From an uncultured Clostridia bacterium (GTDB lineage: Bacteria; Bacillota; Clostridia; Lutisporales; Lutisporaceae): 42,811 nt of DNA. Both the position numbers and the translations under genes were made by a program. Shown here piece by piece: positions 37,157 through 41,038 of this stretch (position 1 is the stretch's first letter; each line of letters opens with the position of its first letter). The stretch lies in NCBI GenBank assembly GCA_937930535.1, contig CALGKJ010000019.1, positions 1-42,811 on the forward strand, written 5' to 3'. Below the pieces are notes generated by a model, which was not told where the DNA came from, did not search any database, and worked only from the letters and a program-made list of their open reading frames with translations.

Positions 37157-37254
37157 GAAGGGAAGCAATAACTGACCCATGAATAAGTTAAATTATTATG
37201 GCTGCTTCCCAATATCTGCAATGGTGGTATAGAACAAAAGAAGCTGGTGATAAT

Positions 37255-38934
37255 ATGAAGCTAAATAATATTATACAATTTGAGAGAAATGCAGAATTTT
37301 ATTTTGATTTGGGGTACAAATACATTCAAAAGGGAAACTTAAAGGTTGCTTTAAGGCATATTGAAAAGGCAACCAAGTTAAAGCCCAATGATGGTTTTAT
37401 TCTTTTTAATTATGCTGGACTTTTGGCAGAGCTGGGAGACATATCCCTTTCTACTGAGGTACTAGAAAATATAGTGGAAAATATAGATCCAAACTATTCG
37501 GAGTGTTTCTTCGGCTTAGGTTGTAATTATTTACAGCTTCAAAAGATTAAAAAGGCAATAGAGTATTTTAATCAATATCTGAAGATTGATCCAGATGGAG
37601 AGTTTTCAGAAGAAGCTGAGGATTTACTTGAAATGCTCATAATGATAAAGGATGCAAATAACGACCTTGATGATGATGAGCTGGATAAACTATATGAGCT
37701 TGAAGAAGAAGCAATAAACCATCTTGAAAAGCGTGAATATGAAACAGCGGTGAAAAAATTTGAAAGAGTTGTTCAGACTCTTCCTAATGCTGTGCCTGCA
37801 AGGAACAACTTATCTCTGACCTACTATTATATTGGAAATATTGATAGGGCAATTGAGTTGGTAAAGGAAGTACTGCAATATGAGCCGGAGAATATACATG
37901 CCAATTGCAATCTGGCAATATATTACAGCAAACAAAAATCAAACAACTGGGTAGATAAGCAGGTAAGAGAAATAAAAAAGCTGACAACAGATAATAGTGA
38001 ATATATGTATAAAATCGCAGATACCCTTGGCTGCCTGCGCAGACACAAGGATGCGTACAAATATTATAAAAGACTTATAGGAATGGACTCAAGTAATACA
38101 CTTTATTTACATTATGGAGCTATAGCAGCTTATAATAGCAAAATGTATACAGAAAGTATAATCCTATGGGAAAAGCTAGAGGAGCTGGAGCCTGATAATT
38201 TTTTGACTGATTATTATATAAATAAAGCGCAAAATTCTATAGAGGATACAGATTCTTATAATGAACTCTTATATGTATATCAACTGCCCAAGGATGAAAT
38301 AACCAGCAGGCTAGACAAGATATACAGGATAATAGAGCTGTCAGAGGAGAAGTGCAAGGAGCATTTGAGGCTGCACCCAGAGGATAAAGATATAATATAT
38401 TTTGGAATGAATTTTGATAAAGCCTTCTTAAGAGTAATTATTTATACCAAAATAAAGCACTATCGGATAAATGCTTTGGAAGCACAGCTTCTGCAAATGC
38501 TGTTAAGGAAAGATGTAGAAGATCACATTAAAATTGAAACAGTATTTATGCTGGATTTAATAGGTGCTGAAAAGCCTTATAAAGTGCAAATGCAGGAAAA
38601 AGAAATTTATATAATTGAGGAAGCATTAGAATATTTCGAACTAAAAGACAGGGAATTGTTGGAGGATATTAAAAATACAGCTGTAGCCAATATGAAAGGA
38701 AGATATGAAGATAATTATGCTGATGAAGTGCAAAAACTATGGTATGATTTTATAAAATATTCATATCCAGAACTTCCATCCTTGTTAAATGCTGATGCTT
38801 GGGCTGGAGCATTGGAATATGCTTACTGCAAATGCTTCAAAATAAAGAATACACAGGCAGCTATCGCTAAGCGATATGGAACTTCTGCTGCTACCTTAGG
38901 GGAAAAGTATAGAAACATAAGCAGGATGCTATAG
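37255..38934 (+). CDS. TPR-repeat protein with HTH-like C-terminus
   Basis: A 559-residue soluble protein. The first 330 residues hold about seven tetratricopeptide repeats; clear ones are YKYIQKGNLKVALRHIEKAT, CNYLQLQKIKKAIEYFNQYL and LTYYYIGNIDRAIELVKEVL. An acidic linker (DDDELDKLYELEEEAI) separates two blocks. The C-terminal 30 residues, KNTQAAIAKRYGTSAATLGEKY, resemble a helix-turn-helix. TPRs mediate protein binding; a regulatory or scaffold role is inferred. ATG 37255 (MKLNNIIQFE) is preferred, with GGTG upstream; an ATG at 37198 lacks a ribosome site and lies in a leader hairpin arm. Confidence 0.82.
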   Translation: MKLNNIIQFERNAEFYFDLGYKYIQKGNLKVALRHIEKATKLKPNDGFILFNYAGLLAELGDISLSTEVLENIVENIDPNYSECFFGLGCNYLQLQKIKKAIEYFNQYLKIDPDGEFSEEAEDLLEMLIMIKDANNDLDDDELDKLYELEEEAINHLEKREYETAVKKFERVVQTLPNAVPARNNLSLTYYYIGNIDRAIELVKEVLQYEPENIHANCNLAIYYSKQKSNNWVDKQVREIKKLTTDNSEYMYKIADTLGCLRRHKDAYKYYKRLIGMDSSNTLYLHYGAIAAYNSKMYTESIILWEKLEELEPDNFLTDYYINKAQNSIEDTDSYNELLYVYQLPKDEITSRLDKIYRIIELSEEKCKEHLRLHPEDKDIIYFGMNFDKAFLRVIIYTKIKHYRINALEAQLLQMLLRKDVEDHIKIETVFMLDLIGAEKPYKVQMQEKEIYIIEEALEYFELKDRELLEDIKNTAVANMKGRYEDNYADEVQKLWYDFIKYSYPELPSLLNADAWAGALEYAYCKCFKIKNTQAAIAKRYGTSAATLGEKYRNISRML

Positions 38935-38962
38935 AGTTTTTAGTTGATATATATGTAAAAAT

Positions 38963-38999
38963 AAAAAAAGTAAAGTCATGAGTATGGCTTTACTTTTTT
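38963..38999. terminator. Bidirectional terminator between the TPR gene and a small leftward gene
   Basis: AAAAAAGTAAAG and CTTTACTTTTTT arms, with CAT/ATG continuing the stem around a GAGT loop, form a strong symmetric hairpin. It ends the TPR transcript rightward and the 34-codon gene leftward; the latter's stop codon lies in the stem. Confidence 0.88.
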
Positions 39000-39094
39000 G
39001 GTTTCAGGGTTTTTTCGCTTTTATTATTGTTTGAGGATGATTTTGATGTATTATGATTTTCGAACATATTATTTGCGATGTTAACGAATGGCAT
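38990..39094 (-). CDS. 34-residue small protein with full expression signals
   Basis: A complete 35-codon frame on the minus strand from ATG (39094-39092) to TAA (38992-38990). The predicted product starts MPFVNIANNMFENHNTSK, then is Ser-, Asn- and Lys-rich and ends LKPKK. The ribosome site AAGGAGGTGG is perfect, 6 bases before the ATG. A near-consensus promoter lies upstream (39156-39184) and a terminator at the stop. It is hydrophilic, without membrane helix or Cys. No family is recognised. It could be a small regulatory or spore-related peptide; function is unknown. Confidence 0.75.
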   Translation of the reverse strand: MPFVNIANNMFENHNTSKSSSNNNKSEKTLKPKK

Positions 39095-39155
39095 TAAATC
39101 CACCTCCTTGACTTTATTATTAGAATTTTCTAAAAATATATTCTTTTACAATAAT

Positions 39156-39184
39156 AATATAAAATTCCAAGTAAATAAAGTCAA
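39156..39184 (-). promoter_or_regulatory. Sigma-A promoter of the 34-codon gene
   Basis: On the minus strand, TTGACT (39184-39179), a 17-base spacer and TATATT (39161-39156) fit the housekeeping consensus closely. Transcription would start near 39149, giving about 55 bases of leader. Confidence 0.8.
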
Positions 39185-39247
39185 AAAAGTATAGTTATTC
39201 AATAATTTTAATGCTTAAAAATTTAGTTTAAATTCTAGTTTAAAACC

Positions 39248-39832
39248 CTAGCGTTCTCTTTTCAATTTAGCTTTTTTACGAATAGAGTAGCCAAAATGCC
39301 CTAGTGTATCAGCAAGAGTTCTGTATTCTCCATGATTGTAGCAGATTAAATCTGCACTATTTAGCTGGAGCTTTCCAGTGCTGTCTATCAAGCTTTCTTC
39401 TACATTGACACACATAATTTCTGCAATAAACATATCATGACTCCCCAGCTTAACAATATCCTTTAACTTACATTCAAGGTTTACAGGACACTCGGATATA
39501 TAAGGTGAACTTACTATGTTAGATTTGACAGGAGTAAGCTTAAGGTGTTCAAATTTGTTAACATCTCTGCCGGACTTTACTCCACAGAAGTCCAATGCAA
39601 AGGCTAAATCTCTATTAGGTATGTTGACAACAAAATCCCCTATTTCCTTTATAAAATCATAAGAGTATCTTTCGGGTCTGATGGATACATAGAGCATAGC
39701 TGGATCGGAACATACTATTCCTGTCCATGCGATTGTAATAATATTACTCTGCCCTTCTTTATTAATACAAGATACCATAACTGCTGGAATCGGATACAGC
39801 ATAGTGCCTGCTTTCCACATCTGCTTAGCCAT
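39248..39832 (-). CDS. Flavin reductase-like FMN-binding protein
   Basis: A 194-residue split-barrel flavoprotein of the flavin_reductase-like (RutF/DIM6) group. Key stretches are MLYPIPAVMVSCINKEGQSNIITIAWTGIVCSDPAML (residues about 11-47), IRPERYSYDFIKEIGDFVVNIPN and GVKSGRDVNKFEHLKLTPV. Members bind FMN and reduce flavins or unknown acceptors. Two copper-free Cys residues (41 and 83-type positions) occur in the barrel, as in several anaerobe homologues. The ATG at 39832 has GGGAGG on the minus strand. No partner oxygenase gene is near. Confidence 0.88.
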   Translation of the reverse strand: MAKQMWKAGTMLYPIPAVMVSCINKEGQSNIITIAWTGIVCSDPAMLYVSIRPERYSYDFIKEIGDFVVNIPNRDLAFALDFCGVKSGRDVNKFEHLKLTPVKSNIVSSPYISECPVNLECKLKDIVKLGSHDMFIAEIMCVNVEESLIDSTGKLQLNSADLICYNHGEYRTLADTLGHFGYSIRKKAKLKRER

Positions 39833-40078
39833 TTATAAACCTCCCTTTATTAAAGCTCAAATATCTGTAAATAAATATCCCATACAACTTGTTACCAAGG
39901 TATAAGATATTATATGCATATTATAACATATTTTATTATGGATGCTTAAATTAACTAGCACAACAAGTTTACCTAATAACATGTGTTATAACTCATGTAA
40001 CCAAAAACAAATTTAGGAATATTATAAGAGTAGAGAAGAAAATGTTTTAATAAATTGTTTTATGGGGAGGTTATTGAT

Positions 40079-40261
40079 TTGCAATTAGGACATGAAGATG
40101 GTTTTGTCTGGTTGTTGCTGCTTGTTTTTGCGTTTACAACTTTATATGGAAAAAAAGAATGGTCACCAGTAAATAAAGCTGCATGTACAAACAAGGAAGA
40201 ACCAGTGTATATATACAAAAATCCCAAACGTGATAGACCAAGAAGGAGACTCGTATATTAG
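40079..40261 (+). CDS. Small membrane-anchored basic protein, unknown (first of three)
   Basis: A 60-residue protein with one hydrophobic helix (about residues 7-24, DGFVWLLLLVFAFTTLYG) and a basic tail ending KNPKRDRPRRRLVY. TTG 40079 is preferred: GGGGAGG at about 40063-40070 is 8 bases upstream. The upstream frame to 40055 begins before that site. The pattern of a short 'DGFxWLLLLVF' helix recalls small sporulation-linked clostridial proteins, but I cannot name a family. It is followed by two more small genes in the same direction. Confidence 0.65.
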   Translation: MQLGHEDGFVWLLLLVFAFTTLYGKKEWSPVNKAACTNKEEPVYIYKNPKRDRPRRRLVY

Positions 40262-40294
40262 CAGCTTATAATATTTTAAGAAAGGAGGATGTAT

Positions 40295-41038
40295 ATGCCA
40301 TACGGTAACAGCAAAGGGATAGAACAGGAAATAAATAGAGTGAAAAGTAAACTGGCAGAAGAGAGACCAGGGCTAAATGTAGATAGTCTATCACAAAACG
40401 ATATGACGAATATTGTAATTGATGAAATCAATAAAAATCCTAATATTGACCCTATAGTCAAGGAAAAAATTAACAGGGGAGATATTGACGGATTAAAGCA
40501 GGACATAATAAACTATCTAAGCAATAACAAATCGGGTGATGGAACCTCCGATGTACTTGTTAATATGCTTAAGAATAATGATATGGATGGTTTGAAGAAC
40601 CAGTTGATGGGCATGCTCTTTGGAGGCATGAACCAGCAAAAAAAAAATGAAATAAATAACGCAGCAGTAAACAACCCAGTACCAAACAATCCAATAGTAA
40701 ATAGTTCAATACCAATTAATGGGATACCAAATAATCCGATGCCAAACAGCTCAATACCTATTGATGGAATACTAAACAATCCAGCAGCGAACAATCCTAC
40801 GTCAAATAACCCAAATACCTTCGCTGGTTTATCCAGTCTGCTTGGCGGGCTAGATTCCAGCGGAGGATTAATGGGTATGCTGATGAATGGAATAGGTCAG
40901 GGAAACCCAGACGACAGCAGAATAGCATTACTGAACTCTATGAAGCCATTTCTATCGGATGTAAGACAGAAGGGCATAGATGATGCTATTAGAATTATTA
41001 GTATGATTGGATATTTCGAGAAATTCCGATTAAGGTAG
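40295..41038 (+). CDS. Asn/Pro-repeat protein, unknown (second of three)
   Basis: A 247-residue soluble protein. An N-terminal helical region (about 1-120) with NMLKNNDMDGLKNQLMGMLFGGM is followed by an Asn-Pro-rich low-complexity stretch (about 123-170) containing two tandem 15-residue units starting NSSIPI (codons 40700-40744 and 40745-40789). A Gly/Leu/Met-rich segment (LLGGLDSSGGLMGMLMNG) precedes a C-terminal helix SRIALLNSMKPFLSDVRQKG that ends RIISMIGYF. That last helix pattern is seen in several clostridial hypothetical proteins. ATG 40295 has AAAGGAGG at 40281-40288 at proper spacing; an ATG at 40289 touches it. No function known. Confidence 0.75.
   Translation: MPYGNSKGIEQEINRVKSKLAEERPGLNVDSLSQNDMTNIVIDEINKNPNIDPIVKEKINRGDIDGLKQDIINYLSNNKSGDGTSDVLVNMLKNNDMDGLKNQLMGMLFGGMNQQKKNEINNAAVNNPVPNNPIVNSSIPINGIPNNPMPNSSIPIDGILNNPAANNPTSNNPNTFAGLSSLLGGLDSSGGLMGMLMNGIGQGNPDDSRIALLNSMKPFLSDVRQKGIDDAIRIISMIGYFEKFRLR

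Follow-up and report, generated by a model that had tools for sequence, protein, structure and literature searches.

In the window, by which we mean the whole 42.8-kb stretch of DNA analysed here, a 34-codon gene lies between a gene for a TPR-repeat protein and a gene for a flavin reductase-like protein. The features of this locus are:

37198..38934, plus strand: TPR-repeat protein of 578 aa, convergent neighbour (Pfam TPR families)
38965..38998, both strands: bidirectional intrinsic terminator common to the small gene and the TPR gene, overlapping the last codons and stop of the small gene
38990..39094, minus strand: 34-codon small-protein gene (frame, nine homologues with open frames, excess of synonymous change)
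39059..39088, minus strand: conserved amphipathic helix FVNIANNMFE, codons 3-12 (helical moment; identical in congener G001)
39100..39109, minus strand: ribosome-binding site AAGGAGGTGG (match to AAGGAGGTGA and spacing to ATG)
39156..39184, minus strand: candidate sigma-A promoter TTGACT-17-TATATT, not above chance by itself
39248..39832, minus strand: flavin reductase-like protein, upstream neighbour (PF01613, 1.1e-30; synteny)

Reading frame and expression signals

The leftward 34-residue frame proposed in the first-pass annotation was recovered at 39094-38990 of the minus strand (MPFVNIANNMFENHNTSKSSSNNNKSEKTLKPKK), from ATG (39094..39092) to TAA (38992..38990), and a gene this short would normally be overlooked by automatic annotation. 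A GTG in the same frame at 39103 is not credible as a start, given that its position falls within the ribosome site. The ribosome site claimed for this frame is near-perfect and well spaced, matching the ideal site AAGGAGGTGA at nine consecutive positions and leaving 8 nt from AGGAGG to the ATG. The sequence AAGGAGGTG occurs once in the window vs. an expected 0.27 occurrences, and among the window's ATG frames of 25-60 aa this is the sole one with a ribosome-site match of at least 7 nt at the correct spacing; the random-sequence expectation for such frames is 0.375 at a 7-nt match and 0.125 at an 8-nt match. The small gene thus has a ribosome site at the right distance, beyond chance.

The promoter claim stood only in part: TTGACT-17-TATATT is present, but it does not rise above chance in this AT-rich DNA, where 8 promoter-like sites were found vs. 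6.2 ± 2.3 in shuffles, and the match therefore carries no weight alone. The shared terminator, on the other hand, withstood scrutiny, as its hairpin has U runs on both strands and is stable on both (−10.3 kcal/mol on the minus strand, −14.6 kcal/mol on the plus strand; z about −5.8), with the stop codon of the small gene inside the stem. An automated terminator scan missed this element, probably because the T run lies within the stem. We also observed an inverted repeat, TTGACTTTATT / AATAAAGTCAA, at 39108-39119 and 39174-39186, whose two arms link the −35 region with that of the ribosome site, possibly by chance. A hairpin around the ribosome site, predicted for the stand-alone copies of the gene described below, was discarded, being no better than in shuffles and lacking in the window.

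A lineage-restricted family under protein-level selection

Homologues were sought in 61 relatives and then in the 22 genomes of the organism's own family, with single-sequence and profile queries. These searches gave a protein family of ten members, each 33-38 aa long, spread over seven genomes from two neighbouring genera of one uncultured Clostridia family; carriers include Clostridiales bacterium GWB2_37_7 and relatives. Genus g1 comprises the window genome and G001, and genus g2 comprises G002, G008, G011, G014, and G017. Besides the window copy, which is the only one found in its own genome (97% complete), there are nine homologues, of which five share the site of the window copy (site A) and the other four occupy a separate, stand-alone locus (site B). 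All ten members start with Met-Pro, and the conserved N-terminus, MP[F/I]VxIANxxxE, provides a clean signature for finding and testing the family.

In agreement with the initial statement that no family is recognised, profile searches of Pfam, NCBIfam, PHROGs, and PADLOC returned no match above curated cut-offs. No match was found by Rfam in 38500-40100, nothing significant was retrieved when PDB sequences were searched with the family profile, and tblastn yielded no convincing match in phages and plasmids. The same held for the profile against 391 genomes of the class and 398 of the phylum, the sole hit beyond the family being 21 residues within a frame of 777 aa. An exact-motif scan of 84,980 species, which would miss divergent relatives, found none outside the clade: of 31 stretches, only eight, all from the known clade, were short frames with a charged tail, while the others were parts of longer or unrelated frames. 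Four motif matches in viral contigs were judged to be chance. The start 'MPxVxI' resembles that of 4-oxalocrotonate tautomerases, a likeness that we set aside given that the 34 residues hold nothing more of that fold.

Stops or frameshifts in homologues had been named as the outcome that would speak against the gene; when this was examined, all homologues had open frames and their length differences were multiples of three. Relatives outside the two genera are without the gene altogether, rather than carrying a broken frame. Between the window copy and that of G001, residues 1-12 are identical (12/12), their codons differing by 7 synonymous and 0 non-synonymous changes. Third positions dominate the differences between site-A copies of genus g2 (by codon position, e.g., 4/2/14 for G017-G008, and 5/3/17), and dN/dS was 0.10-0.23 in unsaturated full-length pairs from both sites. 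Given that relatives hold the protein sequence while silent positions change freely, the frame is, on comparative sequence evidence, a genuine protein-coding gene, and the initial suggestion of an undescribed small protein gains support. An alternative, that the frame is no gene and arose by chance in an AT-rich gap, could draw on its shortness, a promoter not above chance, and its absence from most of the family, but it is very improbable in the face of the ribosome site and the protein-level conservation, and the open homologues, dN/dS values, and synonymous-only N-terminal changes, a synonymous excess seen between independent copies, rule it out.

Judged from these sequences, the family is undescribed but of a known kind, that of lineage-restricted small proteins, for which annotation has a large blind spot. 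As this case shows, signals alone were enough to pick out a 34-codon frame that belongs to a genuine gene family absent from the main family libraries.

Conserved helix, variable tail, and possible partners

The product had been described as hydrophilic and rich in Asn, Ser, and Lys, which applies to residues 13-34 alone. The segment of residues 3-12 is amphipathic, and half of it is hydrophobic. In the window copy, this segment has a helical moment of 0.57 (P about 0.02 vs. shuffles), and in all ten members values were 0.48-0.62 (P 0.007-0.022 vs. same-residue shuffles, these P-values not being independent as the sequences are related), with no strand-like periodicity in any of them. AlphaFold, run with a nine-row alignment, placed a helix at residues 6-19 and left the rest of the tail unstructured, in a model of low confidence (mean pLDDT 63.5, pTM 0.21) with pLDDT about 78 in residues 1-10. 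Together, moment and low-confidence model indicate an amphipathic helix, as in small proteins of the SpoVM type. The polar face of this helix is formed by N5, N8, N9, and E12, without Lys or Arg. The tail, 0-12% hydrophobic, varies in sequence and length, and net charge is +3 to +6 in site-A copies and 0 to +2 in stand-alone copies. By eye, no transmembrane or signal segment was apparent.

SpoVM, a basic 26-aa protein conserved across endospore formers, consists almost wholly of an amphipathic helix. Like SpoVM, the clostridial protein is tiny and built on an amphipathic helix, but its family is restricted and has a tail predicted to be disordered. SR7P of Bacillus subtilis, a genus-restricted protein of 39 aa made from an antisense RNA, binds enolase, and its 20 N-terminal residues are conserved, near-identical, and presumed to form the enolase-binding surface; its gene lies downstream of another gene and has its own promoter while also receiving upstream transcription (PMC8152036). 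The clostridial protein matches SR7P in its similar size, taxonomic restriction, and conserved N-terminus as a putative binding surface, and its gene likewise lies downstream of another gene with a candidate promoter of its own and may also receive upstream transcription; however, the two share no demonstrated sequence relation, and the enolase target and antisense-RNA origin belong to SR7P. VcdP of VcdRP, a 29-aa protein of the gammaproteobacterium Vibrio cholerae, activates citrate synthase (PMC8672173). It too is very small and comes from a short transcript with a possible second role as RNA, but it has no sequence relation to the clostridial family, and the citrate synthase target and gammaproteobacterial host are its own.

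Our preferred reading, to which we give slightly less than an even chance, is that the gene is translated into a lineage-restricted soluble protein whose N-terminal helix docks on a partner and whose disordered tail is free, tuning the enzyme or complex bound. Transcription would start at the gene's own promoter and/or reach it by read-through out of the flavin reductase gene, and the transcript would end at the terminator shared with the TPR gene. A short amphipathic helix formed by the first 12 residues would bind the partner, which is most likely a protein; the tail, hydrophilic and variable, would stay disordered. By analogy with SR7P, SR1P, and VcdP, the small protein would probably tune the activity of what it binds.

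A peripheral membrane protein similar to SpoVM, with the helix resting on the surface of the membrane while lipid head groups are bound by the Lys-rich tail, would account for the amphipathic helix and for the net positive charge of the copies at the window's site. We consider this unlikely, as the helix makes only about three turns, its polar face is neutral or acidic, and the stand-alone copies are nearly neutral. Given that this face is devoid of Lys and Arg, a protein partner fits better than a membrane. The SR7P-like pattern of a conserved short helix, variable tail, and lineage restriction also leads us to favour protein docking, with the membrane second.

Two loci with different contexts

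Site B is present in four genomes (G001, G002, G008, and G014) as a stand-alone gene with a strong GGCCAACATC-type terminator. The stand-alone homologues are located as follows:

L025, 4354-4640
L026, 4295-4580
L022, 1180-1466
L028, 360-640

In these copies, an ATG or TTG lies two codons before the invariant ATG and varies between copies, so the invariant ATG is the likelier start. All four carry a promoter, TTTACA-17-TATGAT or TATCAT, within an aligned conserved block that spans from about −105 to the terminator; outside it, identity is 20-46%. Within the block, the 3' untranslated part and terminator are 76-90% identical vs. 62-83% for the coding sequence past codon 12, AGATAGCnACATTATT is kept although the G001 frame is shifted there, and the terminator stem shows compensatory changes. 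The window copy differs at its 3' end, where the conserved RNA part of the stand-alone loci was not seen. Apparent extra copies of the upstream element, G000:C123 and G010:C32, were AT-rich chance matches. In the three g2 genomes with both sites, the site-B gene is near a gene beginning MWTR..LK.RAKEVLK, and beside the G001 homologue lies a gene (L002 638-823) whose 61-aa product is Met- and Cys-rich and looks secreted.

The stand-alone transcripts may also act as RNA, their sequence pattern being one that would fit a dual-function RNA of the SR1 or VcdRP type, and at this locus experiments could tell a coding function from one at the RNA level. The transcript could matter as a regulatory or dual-function RNA with the peptide as one of two products, since site-B conservation runs from promoter to terminator and is higher across genera in the 3' untranslated part and terminator than in the coding sequence past codon 12, even where the G001 frame is shifted. 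We hold this to be improbable, given that this 3' end is not shared by the site-A copies, which in genus g2 are second genes of an operon, and that protein-level selection is clear; moreover, a conserved terminator needs no further role, and transfer between lineages could also hold DNA alike. A lineage-specific dual-function regulator, in which site-B copies combine a conserved 3' regulatory RNA with a docking peptide while site-A copies, including the window's, provide the peptide alone under new control, has in our view a rather small chance of being correct.

At site A, in the window and all five g2 genomes, the small gene is flanked by the TPR gene and the convergent flavin reductase gene, except that the G014 contig stops before the TPR gene would be reached. 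The distance from the reductase stop to the small-gene start is about 20 nt in genus g2 and 154 nt in the window. Where the small gene is missing from this spot, as in G001 and in genera g3, g5, and g7, hardly any DNA separates the reductase gene from the TPR gene. G003, which is without the small gene, has the same AAAGTAAAG...CTTTAC terminator between both flanking genes, and every site-A gene ends in Lys-Lys-stop, read from the start of the terminator stem, which indicates that the small gene makes use of a terminator that was there before it. Although located at site A, the window copy is closer in sequence to the stand-alone copy of G001, with its identical N-terminus, than to the g2 site-A copies. 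It may have originated by relocation, old duplication with loss, or independent insertion, which look alike on 34 columns.

The position between both genes in six genomes, five of them with about 20 nt from the reductase stop, might suggest an accessory subunit specific to the adjoining flavin reductase or TPR protein. We find this quite improbable: most members of the bacterial family, including G001, g3, g5, and g7, have both genes without the small one, and the second locus lies elsewhere. Given that the four stand-alone copies are not beside TPR or reductase genes, the neighbourhood names no target for the docking protein that we favour.

Throughout most of the family, the TPR and flavin reductase genes are neighbours that point towards each other and in many cases almost overlap, and the C-terminus of the TPR protein (37198-38934) resembles a helix-turn-helix by eye. 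Further along the window, 40289-41038 encodes an Asn/Pro-rich protein of 249 aa (MPYGNSKG...), with no significant Pfam match, whose relatives (MPYGKS...) occupy the same locus in genus g2 (L021 3126-3719 and L027 4514-5107).
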